22,820 nt of DNA from a virus. Shown piece after piece: positions 13,721 to 20,146 of this stretch. Both the position numbers and the translations under genes were made by a program. The notes under the pieces were generated by a model. The model searched no databases and had not been told where the DNA came from. It worked only from the letters and a program-made list of their open reading frames with translations. The stretch spans positions 1 through 22,820 of IMG/VR virus record IMGVR_UViG_3300030389_000458. One strand, written 5' to 3'. How positions within the stretch are numbered: position 1 is the first letter of the stretch; each line of letters opens with the position of its first letter.

Positions 13721-14071
13721 ATGGAAAGTGCTGTCACTCTTATACAAGAGGTTGGTTTTCCTATCGCAGCTGCCGTAGGTTTAGGTTGGTTTATATACAA
13801 ACTTATTATGCGTATTGTTGATGGCATGGAGACTAAACTTGATACTGTTGATGAAAAAGTAGAAGGTCAAATATCAGCATTAGAAGAAAGGTTAGGTACT
13901 AAACTTGACTCTCAACACGGTATATTAGTAGCATTGATAGATAGAGTTAGGAGTTTAGATAACGAAATAATAAGGCAGGATACACTAGTTAAAACTATTT
14001 TAGGTGTCCCGCAACTTATTGATAGTAATAAAATAGCTAAGGCTGACAGAGATGACCAAAGGAAAGACTGA
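13721..14071 (+). CDS. Membrane-anchored coiled-coil protein, holin-like
   Basis: Encodes 116 residues. One transmembrane helix (VGFPIAAAVGLGWFIYKLIM) is followed by a long charged helix with regular hydrophobic spacing (METKLDTVDEKVEGQISALE) and a polar tail. N-out single-helix proteins with this ending resemble BhlA/UviB-type holin-like proteins and are frequent in marine phages. Its end overlaps the csgF-like start by 20 bases, tying it to the curli-like block. It could be a holin, an i-spanin-like protein or an inner-membrane partner of the export pore. Sequence alone does not decide. Confidence 0.7.
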   Translation: MESAVTLIQEVGFPIAAAVGLGWFIYKLIMRIVDGMETKLDTVDEKVEGQISALEERLGTKLDSQHGILVALIDRVRSLDNEIIRQDTLVKTILGVPQLIDSNKIAKADRDDQRKD

Positions 14072-14540
14072 CGACAATATTTGGATATATAGAATCGCAG
14101 GGTTTCTCTGTATTTTCTTTTTTCTTGCAATTTTAACTAATCCTTTGTGGGCGGACACTATAACTTTTAAATTCAAAAACCCTAGCTTTAGTGGTTTAAA
14201 CACTAGTTCACACTACCTCACGATAGAAAACCAAGAGTTCAACCGTAAAGAGGCACTTAAAGCAGAAATAAAAGCTCTACAAGAACAAATAGAAAGAGAT
14301 AAAGAAAACACTACACTCGCTAGATTTATAAGGAATTTAGAAAGTCGTATCTATGCACAGCTTTCTAGACAGCTGGTAGAAAATTTATTTGGGGAAACGC
14401 CCAGTACAGAGGGTACTTTAACCCTTGAAGGCAACACTATTAAATATAGTGTTGTTGACGGAATAATAACTTTAACGATAACAGATGCAGATGGGAATGT
14501 TACGACTATATCTTTACCCGTTGGTAATTTTACTTTCTAG
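14052..14540 (+). CDS. csgF: CsgF-like curli assembly factor
   Basis: Encodes 162 residues. A hydrophobic segment (IAGFLCIFFFLAILTNPLWA) gives a Sec signal with predicted cleavage before DTITFKFKNPSFSG. That mature start is the CsgF signature: the E. coli protein begins with T-F-x-F-R-N-P-x-F-x-G, the segment that inserts into the CsgG channel. The middle is helical (residues about 68-115), and the C-terminus (LTLEGNTIKYSVVDGIITLT) matches the CsgF beta-domain D-Y-I-V-D-x-x-x-x-D-G-x-L-x-L pattern. Mature length near 128 residues compares with about 119 in E. coli. CsgF binds CsgG and positions the nucleator outside the outer membrane. It starts inside the upstream gene with AAGG nine bases ahead. 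Confidence 0.9.
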   Translation: MTKGKTDDNIWIYRIAGFLCIFFFLAILTNPLWADTITFKFKNPSFSGLNTSSHYLTIENQEFNRKEALKAEIKALQEQIERDKENTTLARFIRNLESRIYAQLSRQLVENLFGETPSTEGTLTLEGNTIKYSVVDGIITLTITDADGNVTTISLPVGNFTF

Positions 14541-15354
14541 TTGTAGCCTTACGCCTGTAGATAAAAGTCTTACAACTGCTGAAACTTTACCAAGTATTTT
14601 ACAAGCACAGTCTGAGGAGCTGTATAACGTAGCAGAACCTAAAATACCTATAGTGGTAGCAGTTTACCCTAATAGTTTTACCGATCAAACAGGTCAGCGT
14701 AAAAGTAATAGTGAGTTCGCTTTATTTAGCACAGCTTTGACACAAGCTCCTAATCATTTATTAATACGTTCGCTTAAAAATGCTTCAGGCGGTAAATTTT
14801 TTAGAGTAGCTGAAAGAGTAGGCTTAGATAACTTAACTAAAGAACGACAGTTAATACGTTCAGCTAGAGAACAAAATGAAGATAAGGACGGAGCTAAACC
14901 ACTTATGCCTTTGTTATTCGCTGGTGTTTTAGTGGAAGGTGCAGTGATAGGTTATGACACCAATACTAAAAGTGGTGGTATAGGAGCTAGGTATTTAGGC
15001 ATAGGCACTAGTAAACAATACAGAATAGATAATATTACCGTATCTTTACGTATGGTTAGTGTAGCCACGGGTGAAGTCCTTATAGATGTTTTAGTAAGTA
15101 AAGAAATTTATAGTTACGGTCAATCACAAGACGTATTTAAGTTCATTGAAGCGGGTACAGAGCTAGTAGAAATAGAGATGGGCGACACTCAAAATGAAAT
15201 TACTACACTAGCACTTTTAAGAGCTATAGAGAGCGGAGTTTTAGAAATTATAAAAATAGGGTATGATAAAGGTTTCTGGGAGGAAAAATATGAAACAATC
15301 GATATTGATAAGCCTGATTGTGATGCTGAGTGCATCGACAATATACGGGGCTGA
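14485..15354 (+). CDS. csgG: CsgG-like outer-membrane curli secretion channel
   Basis: Encodes 289 residues. Lipobox LLSSC places the lipid-anchored Cys near residue 20. Matches to E. coli CsgG run along its length: VVAVYPNSFTDQTGQ, FSTALTQ, ERVGLDNLTKERQLIRSARE, LVEGAVIGYDTNTKSGGIGA, ARYLGIG, RMVSVATGEVLI and ALLRAIESGVLEI. CsgG forms a nonameric lipoprotein channel that secretes curlin subunits. The lipobox requires one of the starts at 14485, 14491 or 14497, so overlap with csgF is 44-56 bases. In the constriction loop Phe56 of E. coli is kept before S-T-A, but Asn55 aligns with Leu and Tyr51 with a small polar residue. The C-terminal tail has a C-x3-C pair and overlaps the next gene by 65 bases. 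No good ribosome site is visible, suggesting coupling. Confidence 0.94.
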   Translation: MQMGMLRLYLYPLVILLSSCSLTPVDKSLTTAETLPSILQAQSEELYNVAEPKIPIVVAVYPNSFTDQTGQRKSNSEFALFSTALTQAPNHLLIRSLKNASGGKFFRVAERVGLDNLTKERQLIRSAREQNEDKDGAKPLMPLLFAGVLVEGAVIGYDTNTKSGGIGARYLGIGTSKQYRIDNITVSLRMVSVATGEVLIDVLVSKEIYSYGQSQDVFKFIEAGTELVEIEMGDTQNEITTLALLRAIESGVLEIIKIGYDKGFWEEKYETIDIDKPDCDAECIDNIRG

Positions 15355-16006
15355 TAATGAAATACATGTTGACCAAAGTGGAGCTACAGCTAATATAGAT
15401 TTAGAACAGTTAGGTTCTGGTAATATAATAGGTGGTTTAAATTCTGCAGCGGGCAGTTTAACTGCTTTAGATTTAGATGGGTTAAGTCTAACACTTGATA
15501 TAAATCAATTAGGAGACACAAATAAGTTTTTAGGTGACATACTAGGTGATAGTATTACAGGCTTTTTTGAGTTTGACGGTGATAGTAACACTTTTACTAT
15601 ACAGGGCGACCCTACTGATACTTACGGTATTGACAGTTCTAATTACAACGTAAGCGTAACAGGTAGTACTAATACCTTTACATTAGACCACGGTACAAGT
15701 GCTCTTGCTGCTACGTTAGATTTAGATTGGATTATACAGGGTGACGGTAACACTTTTGATTTTGATATAAATTACGATGGTGCTACTAACTATGTTGATG
15801 TTGACGGTGATAGCAATACAGTAAACTTTACAGGTTCTGGTTATGCTGGTGCTTACTTTTATTTAGATCAAACAGGTAACAGTAGAACTTTTAACATACA
15901 ACAACTGAGTACACAAGATAATGACTGGCTCAAGATTATTTCTAACGGTAATAATGGTACTGTTTGCGTCATTCAAAACGACCAAGGTACAAGCACAAGC
16001 TGTTGA
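15290..16006 (+). CDS. Secreted curlin-like repeat protein
   Basis: Encodes 238 residues. A signal peptide (MKQSILISLIVMLSASTIYG, cleavage near A-D-N) leads to about eight irregular repeats of form hydrophobic-x-hydrophobic-x-x-G-x-x-N-T-F-x-hydrophobic: FEFDGDSNTFTIQGD, VSVTGSTNTFTLDHG, WIIQGDGNTFDFD, VDVDGDSNTVNFTG and FYLDQTGNSRTFNIQQ among them. Curlin repeats share the Q/G-x-G-x-x-N ladder that forms amyloid beta-solenoids, and the gene directly follows csgG, so it is the likely export substrate (CsgA/CsgB analogue). Repeats vary in length and are rich in Asp. Two Cys, at about 226 and the last residue, could form a disulphide. GGGAGG six bases before ATG is the strongest ribosome site in the block, fitting high subunit supply. 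Earlier in-frame starts add nothing to the signal. Confidence 0.82.
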   Translation: MKQSILISLIVMLSASTIYGADNEIHVDQSGATANIDLEQLGSGNIIGGLNSAAGSLTALDLDGLSLTLDINQLGDTNKFLGDILGDSITGFFEFDGDSNTFTIQGDPTDTYGIDSSNYNVSVTGSTNTFTLDHGTSALAATLDLDWIIQGDGNTFDFDINYDGATNYVDVDGDSNTVNFTGSGYAGAYFYLDQTGNSRTFNIQQLSTQDNDWLKIISNGNNGTVCVIQNDQGTSTSC

Positions 16007-17033
16007 TATAGGGGATATTTCTGAATTAAGAGGTAACGCTCAAATAGTAAGGGATAAACCTTATCAGGCTGACCTTAAATTTGCTATACAAAGCAATGAT
16101 GAAGCTATTACTACTGATGGTAGGATGGCTATTACTTTTTTAGATGCATCTACAGTAAAACTTACTGAACACTCACAACTACTCATAGATGAATATATCT
16201 ATGACCCTGACCCTAGTAAATCAAAAATGTCTCTTAACTTTGCTTTAGGTACAGCTAGGTTTATAACGGGTAACTTAAACCGCATAGATAAACAGAACAT
16301 AAAACTAAGCACACCTACAGCGAATATCGCTATACGTGGCACAGATTTTACTGCTACTGTAGATGAACTAGGTAGAAGTTTAATCATACTTTTACCAGAC
16401 GCTTTGGGTTTATCAAGCGGTGAAATAGAGGTAGTTACCGCTATGGGTACAGTTATACTAAATAAACCTTATCAAGCTACTACGGTAAATGTTTTTGAGT
16501 CTGCACCTAGTAAACCAGTCATATTAGATTTAAGCTTAGATATTATTGATAACATGCTAATAGTCACACCGCCTAAAGAGGAACAAGTTTTAACAGAAGA
16601 AGCTAATGTTGTAAAAACTAATAATTTTTTAGATTTTAATGATTTAGATATAGATTACTTAGCTGAAGATTTTTTAGATGACAACAGTTTAGAATTTACA
16701 GAACTAGACATAAACTATTTAGATGTAAATTTTTTAGAAGACTTACTTGATATTCTTGACGTATTAGCTATAGAAGAGGAAAAAGATCAATTAGCTTTAG
16801 CTACAGGTATCAACGTAAGCGGAACTTTAATAGGTCAAGACGCTAACACTCAAATAACTACTATAATAACAGGTCAAACTATAAGCTTACGTAGAAAAGT
16901 GAGTGAAACTGCTAGAGTTGATTTAAATGTAGAAGGTAGTTACACAGTTATATTTATACAAGATGGTGTCTCTAATACAGTTAAAATAAACGGTGGTGGT
17001 GACTCAGTTATAACTATTAAACAGAGCAGTTAA
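15921..17033 (+). CDS. Secreted FecR-domain protein with curlin-like C-terminus
   Basis: Encodes 370 residues. Residues 1-27 are a signal peptide (LFLTVIMVLFASF, ending V-Q-A-Q-A). Residues about 28-170 are a FecR domain: ITTDGRMAITFLDASTVKLT, LLIDEYIYDP, the L-N-x-A-L-G-T-A-R-F-I-T-G strand and TPTANIAIRGTDFTATVDE are its landmarks. There is no DUF4880 or membrane segment, so this is a free periplasmic or exported form rather than an anti-sigma regulator. Residues 236-276 hold an acidic Leu/Asp duplication. The last 35 residues (FIQDGVSNTVKINGGGDS, then ITIKQS) follow the curlin Q-x-G-x-x-N ladder. It overlaps the curlin gene by 86 bases (53 if ATG 15954 is used). It may be a ligand of the CHASE2 cyclase next door, or a nucleator. 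Confidence 0.83.
   Translation: MTGSRLFLTVIMVLFASFKTTKVQAQAVDIGDISELRGNAQIVRDKPYQADLKFAIQSNDEAITTDGRMAITFLDASTVKLTEHSQLLIDEYIYDPDPSKSKMSLNFALGTARFITGNLNRIDKQNIKLSTPTANIAIRGTDFTATVDELGRSLIILLPDALGLSSGEIEVVTAMGTVILNKPYQATTVNVFESAPSKPVILDLSLDIIDNMLIVTPPKEEQVLTEEANVVKTNNFLDFNDLDIDYLAEDFLDDNSLEFTELDINYLDVNFLEDLLDILDVLAIEEEKDQLALATGINVSGTLIGQDANTQITTIITGQTISLRRKVSETARVDLNVEGSYTVIFIQDGVSNTVKINGGGDSVITIKQSS
16628..16747 (+). repeat. Two 60-bp tandem units inside the FecR-domain gene
   Basis: Units at 16628-16687 and 16688-16747 each open TTTAGA and encode about 20 acidic residues: LDFNDLDIDYLAEDFLDDNS then LEFTELDINYLDVNFLEDLL. The copies are clearly diverged, so the duplication is not recent. Confidence 0.75.
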
Positions 17034-17034
17034 T

Positions 17035-18783
17035 GTGAAAAAATATGTAATACCTTTATTGTTAATATTAGCTTTACCCTTAATATTTCAAAGTACACCT
17101 ACTGAAATATTAAAACTAAAAACCTTTGATGCATTGATAAAAACACCAGAGCACAGCGGTAATTTTATGATACTTAACATTACTGAAGAAGATATTGAAC
17201 GTGAGGGTGGTTACCCTTTACCTAGAAAAAGATTAGCAGATATACAGTTAGAAATACTGGGTAAGGGGGCGTTAGGTGTGGGTTGGGTTATATCTTTTCC
17301 ACAAGCTGATAGATTAGGTGGTGATGAAGACTTTGCTAGGTCTTTAGGTTATGCACCTAGTGTTTTAGCTACTTTTGAAACACCTAATAATTTATACCCT
17401 AAAACTACAGGTACAGTTATAAAAGGTCAAGATACTGGCGGTATATCGGTAAGCGGTGTAAAAGAAAATTATAATGCTTATGATAAAATACTTCAAGGTA
17501 TGGCCATAGCTCCCGTTGAAGCTGATCAATTAGTAAGGAGGATTCCCCTGTTACTTAAAACACCAGACGGTTGGTCAGCTTCTTTTGGGACTCAAGTTTT
17601 AAAAGTTCTTACTAATACACCCACTTACATAATAACTACTAACGAAAACGGTATACAAGAAATAGCGGTTAGGGGTTTACCACCAGTTAAAACCGACAGC
17701 TTAGGGCGTAAGTGGATTAGTTGGGTTGATACGCCTCAAACAGATTTACAAGAAATGAACGTAAACGGTAAGTTTGTGTTTGTAGGTATAACAGCTAACG
17801 GCGTTATGCCACAAGTTGCTACTCCAGTTGGGTTACTAGAACCACACAAAATACAAGCAGCATTATCAGAAAGTATCCTTATTGAAAATAGTCCTTACAT
17901 ACCTGATTGGGCTTTAGCTCTTGAGTTATTAATATTATTGACTACAGTTATTTTAGTTTGGTTTTTATTAATAAAACTAGGTATTACATGGGGGTTAGTA
18001 TTAAGCTTCCTTACGGCGTCTGTAACGGCTTTAGGGGGCTACTATTTAATTAGTAAAGGTTTACTTATAGACGTTACTTGGACTCTTATTAGCCAGTTTA
18101 TAAGCGGGGCTTTAGCTTTTTACCTTAGGTTTAGAGAACAATATAAATTACGTTTACTAATTAAAAAACAGTTTGAACACTACCTTGACCCGCGTCAAGT
18201 AAAACGTTTACAGAATAATCCTGATTTATTGAAGTTAGGCGGGGAAACTAGACGTTGTACGTTTTTATTCACTGACGTTAGAGGCTTTACTAATTTAAGT
18301 GAAAAACTACCACCTGAACAAGTAACTGAAATAATGAACAAAGTATTAACAGTACAAGTAACTTGTATTCAGGCACACGGAGGTATGGTAGATAAATTTA
18401 TAGGCGACGCATGTATGGCTATATTTAATGCCCCATTAGAATTAGATAATCATGAATTAAGAGCTATAACATGTGCTCAAGATATACGCACTGGTATACG
18501 TATGTTACAAAAAGAATTACCTGAACCTATATCAATAGGTATAGGCATTAACACTGGTGAAGCTGTAATAGGTAACATGGGCAGTGATACAAGGTTTGAT
18601 TACAGTGCTATAGGAGACGCTGTTAATACTGCTGCTAGACTTGAATCAGCAACCAAAGAAGTAGGCGTAGATTTATTAATAGGAGAAAATACTAAAAAAA
18701 GTTGTGATTTTAAGTTAAAATTATTAGATCCTATAAAAGTAAAGGGTAAAAAAGATTATTTAAAAATATATACGGTAAGGTAA
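17035..18783 (+). CDS. CHASE2-domain transmembrane adenylate cyclase (class III)
   Basis: Encodes 582 residues from GTG (the overlapping ATG is followed at once by TGA). Order: transmembrane helix at 4-20; CHASE2 extracytoplasmic sensor about 28-280, with FDALIKTPEHSGNFMILNIT and GKFVFVGITANGV landmarks; three helices about 290-375; class III cyclase domain about 400-582. Catalytic residues are present: metal Asp414 (FTDVRGFT) and Asp458 (DKFIGDACM), adenine-type Lys454, Ser524 at the Asp/Thr purine position, and Asn531 and Arg535 (VNTAARLE) for the transition state. It should make cAMP from ATP at the inner membrane in response to a periplasmic cue. FecR-CHASE2-cyclase neighbours are known in bacterial operons; finding the set in a phage is unusual. 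It starts one base after the FecR gene. Confidence 0.92.
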   Translation: MKKYVIPLLLILALPLIFQSTPTEILKLKTFDALIKTPEHSGNFMILNITEEDIEREGGYPLPRKRLADIQLEILGKGALGVGWVISFPQADRLGGDEDFARSLGYAPSVLATFETPNNLYPKTTGTVIKGQDTGGISVSGVKENYNAYDKILQGMAIAPVEADQLVRRIPLLLKTPDGWSASFGTQVLKVLTNTPTYIITTNENGIQEIAVRGLPPVKTDSLGRKWISWVDTPQTDLQEMNVNGKFVFVGITANGVMPQVATPVGLLEPHKIQAALSESILIENSPYIPDWALALELLILLTTVILVWFLLIKLGITWGLVLSFLTASVTALGGYYLISKGLLIDVTWTLISQFISGALAFYLRFREQYKLRLLIKKQFEHYLDPRQVKRLQNNPDLLKLGGETRRCTFLFTDVRGFTNLSEKLPPEQVTEIMNKVLTVQVTCIQAHGGMVDKFIGDACMAIFNAPLELDNHELRAITCAQDIRTGIRMLQKELPEPISIGIGINTGEAVIGNMGSDTRFDYSAIGDAVNTAARLESATKEVGVDLLIGENTKKSCDFKLKLLDPIKVKGKKDYLKIYTVR

Positions 18784-19022: not shown

Positions 19023-19225
19023 GAACTCCTACAGTACAAGATGTAGCTAAAGATTTAGCAGTATCTAAAAAAGAAAACGCAGAACGTTGGAAAACTGCTT
19101 TTAACGAGTTTGCTGATATTAAACAAGAAATAGCTTCGATAAACAATACTATAAAAATGGCTACGTTTGGCGTATTTAGTTTCATAGGAGCATTAACTAT
19201 AGCGGTAGTAACGGTGATTATATGA
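19019..19225 (+). CDS. Small tail-anchored membrane protein, holin- or XhlA-like
   Basis: Encodes 68 residues. The N-terminal 45 residues are charged and helical (VAKDLAVSKKENAERWKTAF), and a C-terminal membrane helix (MATFGVFSFIGALTIAVVTV) ends the protein. This soluble-helix then C-terminal-anchor design resembles XhlA/hemolysin-associated proteins that act with a holin. It overlaps both neighbours by four bases, and the next gene is a clear holin-like protein, so it is part of the lysis module. Cell membrane location is predicted from the helix. Confidence 0.72.
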   Translation: MRTPTVQDVAKDLAVSKKENAERWKTAFNEFADIKQEIASINNTIKMATFGVFSFIGALTIAVVTVII

Positions 19226-19701
19226 AAGGATTATTAAAAAATATAGTGGGGGCTGTAGCTCCTACACTAGGAACAGCCATAGCTGGACCTATGGGTAATA
19301 TGGCTTTAGGTAAAATAGCTGAAGTATTAGGTTGTCCATCAGACCAAAAATCTGTAGAAAAAGCAGTACAAAATGCAACACCAGAACAAATGATTGAGCT
19401 TAAAAAAGCTGAACAAGAGTTTGAAGTACAGATGAAAAAACTTGATGTAGATGTTTTTAAACTTGAAGCACAAGAAAAACAACATGCTAGGGGTATGTTT
19501 AGTAAAGATTGGACTGCTCGTATTATAGGCTTATTTACTATAGGTGGTTTTTTAGGCTACATATTTTTAGTAACGTTACAACCACCTGAACAAAACAGTG
19601 AAGCACTGATTAATTTAGTGTTAGGTTATTTAGGGGGATTAGCGAGTGCAATTATTTCGTTTTATTTCGGAGCGTCTCACACCAACGATAAAGGAGAGTA
19701 A
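19222..19701 (+). CDS. Phage holin, three-hydrophobic-segment type
   Basis: Encodes 159 residues. A Gly/Ala-rich hydrophobic N-terminus (VGAVAPTLGTAIAGPMGNMA) is followed by a charged helix of about 55 residues (LKKAEQEFEVQMKKLDVDVF) and two strong membrane helices: RIIGLFTIGGFLGYIFLVTL and LVLGYLGGLASAIISFYFGA. This layout with K-D-W-T-A-R-x-I-G before the first helix is that of the marine and proteobacterial 3TM holin family. The gene immediately precedes the lysozyme, with one base between them. It should control the time at which the endolysin reaches the cell wall. Confidence 0.82.
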   Translation: MKGLLKNIVGAVAPTLGTAIAGPMGNMALGKIAEVLGCPSDQKSVEKAVQNATPEQMIELKKAEQEFEVQMKKLDVDVFKLEAQEKQHARGMFSKDWTARIIGLFTIGGFLGYIFLVTLQPPEQNSEALINLVLGYLGGLASAIISFYFGASHTNDKGE

Positions 19702-19702
19702 T

Positions 19703-20146
19703 ATGAAAATATCACAAGAAGGATTATCTTTGATAAAAAAATTCGAGGGCTGTGAGCTTGAAGCGTATAAGTGTGCTGCGGGTGTTTGGACAATAGGTTA
19801 TGGCTCAACTAAAGGCGTAAAAGAAGGCGATACTATTAAACAAGAAGACGCTGATAAATTACTTACTGAAGAGATGAGTGAGTACGAGGGTTACATAAAT
19901 GATATGGTAGAGTCTGATTTAAAACAGAATGAGTTTGACGCTTTAGTATCATGGGTTTACAACCTTGGACCATCTAACTTATCTTCAAGTACGCTCCTAC
20001 AAAGGTTAAATAATAAAGATTGGGATGATATTCCTAATCAAATAAAAAGGTGGAATAAGGCTGGGGGCGTAGTGAAACAAGGTTTAATACGCAGACGTGA
20101 AGCAGAAGCTTTATTATTTGAAGGTAAGGAGTGGCACGAGGTTTAA
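19703..20146 (+). CDS. GH24 endolysin (T4-type lysozyme family)
   Basis: Encodes 147 residues from ATG 19703, which has AAGGAGAG ahead of it; the upstream in-frame ATG at 19646 lies inside the holin gene and lacks a site. Glu15 in KKFEGCELEAYKC is the catalytic acid, Thr30 in GVWTIGYGST the catalytic threonine, and Cys24 takes the place of the T4 Asp, a known E-C-T variant in GH24 endolysins. Later conserved parts are FDALVSWVYNLGPSNLSSST, LLQRLNNKDWDDIP and GLIRRREAEALLFEG. No signal or SAR helix is seen, so release depends on a holin. It cleaves N-acetylmuramic acid-N-acetylglucosamine bonds. Confidence 0.95.
   Translation: MKISQEGLSLIKKFEGCELEAYKCAAGVWTIGYGSTKGVKEGDTIKQEDADKLLTEEMSEYEGYINDMVESDLKQNEFDALVSWVYNLGPSNLSSSTLLQRLNNKDWDDIPNQIKRWNKAGGVVKQGLIRRREAEALLFEGKEWHEV

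Follow-up and report, generated by a model that had tools for sequence, protein, structure and literature searches.

Why should a phage encode a complete receptor adenylate cyclase, and what might such an enzyme report on in the infected cell? The question is raised by a gene in a 22,820-bp linear virus record, analyzed over its whole length and termed here the window. The original prediction described positions 17035-18783 as a complete membrane adenylate cyclase with a CHASE2 sensor encoded by a phage, and this holds: the reading frame is intact, both Pfam domains are found, and the contig is that of a phage, with genes for capsid, tail, lysozyme and further virion proteins around the cyclase. 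What was overlooked is the company that the gene keeps. The genes for CsgF, CsgG, a curlin-like protein and a FecR-domain protein form one module together with the cyclase.

The cyclase and the operon that it closes

The features of the window are as follows.

615-983: endonuclease-like protein (phrog_452)
1107-1625: GroES-like co-chaperonin (phrog_3188)
13721..14071, + strand: small protein upstream of csgF (phrog_18771)
14052..14540, + strand: CsgF curli assembly factor (PF10614, E 3.3e-19)
14485..15354, + strand: CsgG outer-membrane curli pore (PF03783, E 3.2e-46)
15263..16006, + strand: curlin-like repeat protein (from position and QLGxxN motifs; likely start 15290 by eye)
15921..17033, + strand: FecR-domain secreted or periplasmic protein, 370 aa, with an N-terminal hydrophobic signal-like segment (PF04773 at aa 64-149, E 7.4e-10)
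17035..18783, + strand: CHASE2 receptor adenylate cyclase, 582 aa (PF05226 and PF00211, catalytic residues, AlphaFold2 model, VIA matches to CyaC and CyaB)
19222..19701, + strand: holin-like membrane protein, a weak assignment (phrog_1544; GTA_holin_3TM only at E 0.085)
19646..20146, + strand: lysozyme, the lysis gene downstream of the cyclase (PF00959, E 1.7e-47)

The CsgF, CsgG, curlin-like and FecR genes overlap or nearly touch one another upstream of the cyclase, whose GTG start lies two bases past the last base (17033) of the TAA stop of the FecR gene. The cyclase thus closes a curli secretion operon, in which the FecR-domain protein is the presumed partner of the CHASE2 receptor. CsgG carries a lipobox-like LSSC near its N terminus (by eye), and is 50.5% identical to the CsgG of phage HTVC008M over 73% of the protein. 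The curlin is identified in the window by position and motif only: no Pfam match lies above the cut-off, and the gene occupies the place of the 'curlin-associated protein' CsgB of HTVC008M and of the 'curlin associated repeat protein' of Melnitz. The small protein preceding CsgF has a hydrophobic segment at its N terminus and, after it, a helical stretch resembling a coiled coil (by eye). The capsid protein is closest to those of Phage DSL-LC04 (74.8% identity), HTVC023P (71.8%), 023Pt_psg01 (70.6%) and HTVC027P (67.2%), and the contig is therefore a relative of the HTVC023P type; the capsid relatives also include Roseobacter and gammaproteobacterial phages.

Within the cyclase, Pfam places the CHASE2 domain (PF05226) at aa 11-306 (E 8.9e-23) and the Guanylate_cyc domain (PF00211) at aa 406-579 (E 1.9e-20), both far above cut-off. 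An AlphaFold2 model built from 39 sequences (mean pLDDT 86.8, pTM 0.62) has an N-terminal helix, a periplasmic alpha/beta CHASE2 domain, a helical bundle at 293-380 and a cyclase fold at 404-581. Domain match and model together give the layout of a CHASE2 receptor, with an N-terminal transmembrane segment, periplasmic CHASE2, a transmembrane bundle and a cytoplasmic output. The full-length layout that had been proposed is thus borne out, while the number of three helices after CHASE2 comes from the family layout, because a Kyte-Doolittle scan flags only 1-26 and 288-339; in the model the helices are fused into 293-340 and 348-380.

The solved fold closest to the cyclase domain is that of CyaC (1wc1; Z 26.2, rmsd 2.2 over 180 residues), followed by that of Pseudomonas aeruginosa CyaB (3r5g; Z 25.9, rmsd 2.1 over 179 residues), and the match to CyaC identifies the class III catalytic fold. 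Both enzymes have the catalytic fold and residues of the phage cyclase and differ from it in the sensor domain; we take the solved structures to be of constructs lacking CHASE2. The matches of the whole model were all taken up by the cyclase domain, so that none informs the CHASE2 fold, and a search of solved structures with the N-terminal 392 residues found no sequence relative beyond one match at E 0.2.

The active site is complete. The residues named in the original prediction, D414, K454, D458, S524, N531 and R535, are all at those positions, and we have aligned them in 83 phage sequences, comprising the window, the best 80 of at least 600 IMG/VR loci, HTVC008M and Melnitz. In this set D414, K454, D458 and R535 are present in 83/83, so that the metal-binding Asp residues, the Lys and the Arg are nowhere broken in these related phages, and N531 is present in 82/83. 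Position 524 is variable, being S in 50, T in 32 and D in one. We take D414 and D458 to be the metal-binding residues, K454 to select adenine, and N531 and R535 to act on the transition state. An ATP-type purine pocket is, as we understand it, formed by Lys with Asp, Thr or Ser, as opposed to Glu with Cys; the alignment places K454 with S, T or D at 524, and hence a pocket of the ATP type. The cyclase is predicted to make cAMP, and this enzymatic part of the assignment is well supported by the sequence.

Purifying selection acts on the gene, with a median dN/dS of 0.208 (346 pairs, dS 0.1-1); the corresponding values for its partners are 0.155 (FecR), 0.147 (CsgG), 0.156 (CsgF) and 0.144 (curlin). 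Median identity to the window among the best 80 of the at least 600 phage loci is 0.73 for CHASE2 and 0.68 for the cyclase domain. The sensor is as conserved as the catalytic domain, and together with the dN/dS and the retained catalytic residues this indicates that the gene is maintained as a sensor-enzyme.

The curli-cyclase module in other phages

How general is the arrangement? A scan of viral contigs found at least 600 stretches encoding relatives of the cyclase. The original prediction regarded phage-encoded receptor cyclases as rare; these numbers, the cultured carriers HTVC008M and Melnitz, and the earlier description of the module (PMC9599517) speak against that. We analyzed 82 loci, namely the 80 best-scoring of the at least 600 together with HTVC008M and Melnitz, so the counts describe near relatives. 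Wherever enough upstream sequence is available in this set, curlin (48/48), CsgG (42/42) and CsgF (37/37) are present, and the small protein before csgF is found in every one of the 33 loci whose upstream sequence reaches 4.7 kb or more. Of the 58 loci whose upstream sequence is 1.3 kb or longer, 57 have FecR ahead of the cyclase; the sole exception is L079, with no FecR match within 1.6 kb upstream. Of the 72 loci having both genes, 57 have FecR and cyclase less than 100 bp apart, and 15 have a spacing of 377-1553 bp.

The two cultured phages carry full-length relatives of the cyclase (HTVC008M AGE60353, Melnitz QZI94833) in the same module, at only 32-33% identity to that of the window. In both an additional gene separates FecR from the cyclase, a Curlin_rpt protein in HTVC008M and the 'curlin associated repeat protein' in Melnitz. 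The HTVC008M record itself names its cyclase.

Some records touching on this distribution should be read with care. Contigs carrying the phage module, or just the cyclase from it, have been binned into bacterial MAGs (L084, L085, L086, L087, L088, L097 and L118), namely those of Pelagibacter, Neomarinimicrobiota, Maricaulis and Flavobacteriaceae, and are a trap for claims of curli or cAMP genes in those bacteria. In one such misbinned phage contig the cyclase frame is broken into two ORFs (L087:4825-6663), which counts against the explanation favored below. The 1.5-kb entry OR851715.1, titled Salmonella phage S.Kent 1-2-1, contains a CsgG gene and may be bacterial DNA. Acinetobacter phage MD-2021a (CAKLQH020000011.1, CAKLQF020000009.1) has a different kind of class III cyclase, whose identity of about 30% extends over the catalytic domain only.

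The core of this finding is not new, because Wittmers et al. (2022; PMC9599517) already describe a phage curli (T8SS) operon including FecR and adenylate cyclase, with the same genes in the same order (CsgF, CsgG, CsgA/B, FecR, adenylate cyclase), which the window matches. As available to us, their paper reports the operon in HTVC023P-type podoviruses and in pelagimyophages, argues for an alphaproteobacterial origin with transfer among phage families, and reports expression in metatranscriptomes; CsgF and CsgG are also given as part of the phage module in the accessible parts of PMC7029224 and PMC9004378. Our analysis differs in several respects. The CHASE2 sensor, identified here, is never named in PMC9599517 (0 occurrences). 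The 'histidine kinase' placed there before csgF contrasts with the proteins that we find at that position, for which no kinase domain was detected in the window or in HTVC008M (Pfam, E 0.1). The available part of the paper regards FecR and the cyclase as departures from bacterial curli operons, and contains no remark on FecR-CHASE2 as a bacterial pair. What is added here is thus the CHASE2 sensor, the recognition of FecR plus CHASE2 as a bacterial pair, the lack of a kinase-domain match in the gene before csgF, and the finding of no convincing cAMP receptor or chromosomal cyclase in the phages and Pelagibacteraceae surveyed.

FecR and CHASE2 as a bacterial pair

The adjacency of FecR and CHASE2 genes seen in the phage has counterparts in bacteria. 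The list of CHASE2 matches spans 187 of 386 alphaproteobacterial genomes, and we inspected 40 neighborhoods, of which 38 came from the upper part of that list and two from Pelagibacteraceae. FecR is nearby in 26/40, and CsgG or CsgF in 0/40; of the 10 bacterial loci closest to the cyclase of the phage, four have FecR. The four bacterial FecR proteins that were scanned are large, with RTX, cadherin/Ig, nidogen or VWA domains (Pfam), and type I secretion genes lie near an RTX-FecR protein in four of the 40 neighborhoods (L157, L160, L172 and L182).

Published systems, as far as the accessible parts of the papers go, show the same pairing, with the genes for a FecR envelope protein and a CHASE2 receptor side by side. 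In the Burkholderia BiofilmReg operon FecR accompanies a CHASE2 histidine kinase, and disruption abolished biofilm (PMC5192318). The output is a cyclase in the other two, as in the phage: Campylobacterota CHASE2 cyclases cluster with a FecR outer-membrane protein (PMC9239204), and in Sinorhizobium meliloti CyaD1 (SMc02176) of the cAMP/Clr system lies beside the FecR-domain protein SMc02177, whose gene was dispensable for signal perception (PMC5498481). Two Pelagibacteraceae genomes encode a further variation, a CHASE2-SpoIIE phosphatase with a FecR gene nearby (L187:8923-10971, L188:8962-10959).

Unlike the phage pair, the bacterial pairs lie outside curli operons in the loci inspected. CsgF was matched in six of the 386 alphaproteobacterial genomes, five of them over cut-off. 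The five corresponding curli loci, inspected to about 10 kb on each side, have CsgG and in 5/5 curlin-type ORFs (motif count), and none contains FecR or a cyclase. On this sample, a bacterial curli operon was accordingly rejected as the origin of the full set of genes (0/5). The absence of FecR and cyclase from bacterial curli operons agrees with the accessible text of PMC9599517, our own sample being of Alphaproteobacteria. FecR-CHASE2 is therefore a bacterial pair that exists without curli, and phages seem to have joined this envelope-sensor pair to a curli operon.

A tree built by a quick method from 28 phage and 43 alphaproteobacterial cyclases places the phage sequences on one side of a branch with SH-aLRT 100. 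The comparison with bacterial cyclases suggested in the original prediction therefore separates the phage group, and leaves the donor unplaced because Alphaproteobacteria are the only bacterial class in the sample.

The model of the phage FecR protein is of low confidence (mean pLDDT 45), such that no FecR-CHASE2 contact can be derived from it. The C-termini of the phage FecR proteins (16950-17030 in the window) are alike, with the pattern Q-x-G-x-x-N/D in 55/73, a hint of a curlin-like strand. The best match to a curlin-repeat profile starts in the last 45 residues in 61 of the 65 proteins with any match. As a curlin-like strand this segment was rejected, since the profile scored at best 3.5 bits against up to 6.0 bits for shuffles (730 shuffles), and no match in the fold comparison exceeded Z 3.4.

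What might the cyclase signal?

We consider it probable, though by no means certain, that FecR and the CHASE2 cyclase constitute a two-protein envelope sensor with the cyclase as its output, at the tail of the phage curli secretion operon. During infection the phage would make CsgG/CsgF pores along with curlin; FecR, once secreted, might then signal to CHASE2 the condition of the periplasm or of fiber secretion, and this would lead the cyclase to make cAMP inside the cell. The coupling of FecR to CHASE2 in this scheme is inferred from the pairing of their genes. The scheme is supported by the catalytic residues, the dN/dS, the conservation of CHASE2, the fixed gene order, the bacterial and published pairs, and the folds of CyaC and CyaB. 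Against it stand the dispensable FecR gene of S. meliloti (in the available part of that report), the 15 of 72 loci with a gap of 100 bp or more, the loci L079 and L087, and a pathway with no evident receptor.

That last point bears on where the cAMP might act. The cAMP-receptor domain PF00027 was found in 0/17 phage contigs of 31-63 kb, which being incomplete provide no proof, and in 0/2 complete isolate phage genomes. As a sample of hosts we took 98 genomes of the family (Pelagibacteraceae) of a Ca. Pelagibacter MAG, which may not be the host group of the contig. PF00027 was matched in seven of these. Four of the proteins were inspected: one is FNR-like by its cysteine pattern, a second looks by eye like an ABC exporter carrying an extra domain, and the remaining two share a single large multidomain architecture. 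Thus we found no convincing CRP-type receptor in the 98 genomes. Class III cyclases occur in 2/98, both on phage curli module contigs, and the class I cyclase PF01295 in 0/98. As a positive control, CHASE2 was detected in 15/98 of the same genomes, two of these on phage-module contigs and 13 on others. With no CRP-type receptor in the phages, and none convincing in Pelagibacteraceae, the target of the cAMP would be either a non-CRP binder or the CRP of a host from another group. One could go further and suppose that marine phages supply bacteria devoid of a native cAMP system with an entire sensor-to-cAMP circuit, in which FecR/CHASE2 watches phage curli secretion and a non-CRP receptor in host or phage reads the messenger; this we regard as a doubtful, tentative extension.

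The alternatives place the signal elsewhere. The phage cAMP might act through a CRP-type regulator of the host on host surface or metabolic genes. The Roseobacter and gammaproteobacterial phages among the capsid relatives lend this some plausibility, for their hosts may have CRP. There is also a precedent in Sinorhizobium, where CHASE2 cyclases act via Clr (CyaD1/CyaD2/CyaK-Clr; in the accessible part of PMC5498481). Against this, the recorded host of HTVC008M is Ca. Pelagibacter ubique, and the PF00027 proteins inspected among the seven Pelagibacteraceae matches are, apart from the FNR-like one, three large multidomain proteins or pieces. The suggestion of the original prediction that the phage raises cAMP to redirect host metabolism is thus weakened for SAR11-type hosts, where cyclases were seen solely on phage-module contigs, and we think the route through a host CRP unlikely. 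Interference with nucleotide-based defense signaling, likewise suggested there, drew no support from the analysis. A second proposal concerns the timing of lysis, with CHASE2 sensing pore opening or envelope damage and feeding back on lysis via the curli pore, FecR and cyclase. In its favor, 39 of the 54 analyzed loci with enough sequence have a lysozyme no more than 2.5 kb past the cyclase, the weak holin-like gene lies between the two in the window, and the Melnitz authors propose that CsgGF is a secretin or pinholin (in the available text of PMC9004378). Yet the adjacent lysozyme is missing from the other 15 of the 54; the module of HTVC008M adjoins tail genes, so the lysis neighborhood does not travel with it; and the curlin genes point to a fiber. 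A role in lysis timing is weakened by these observations, and seems to us improbable.

Lastly, the cyclase could be ancestral baggage that arrived with a bacterial FecR-CHASE2 module, having no signaling role now or a product that is irrelevant. The missing receptor in the 17 contigs and two complete isolates would fit this, as would the existence of bacterial FecR-CHASE2 pairs without curli. The low dN/dS, conserved catalytic residues and retained sensor domain are unlike decay, and 1.7 kb of phage genome is kept for the cyclase; we therefore hold this to be the least credible of the readings, and very improbable.

The envelope sensor of FecR and cyclase remains the account that we favor. The ocean is rich in phage curli operons, going by both the accessible part of PMC9599517 and the at least 600 stretches found here. 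What they are for is still open, and with likely hosts that seem to lack a cAMP receptor this turns into a sharp question, that of the role of cAMP in SAR11-type cells. Taking FecR and the cyclase as one envelope sensor of bacterial type provides a model for the control of the module that can be tested directly.
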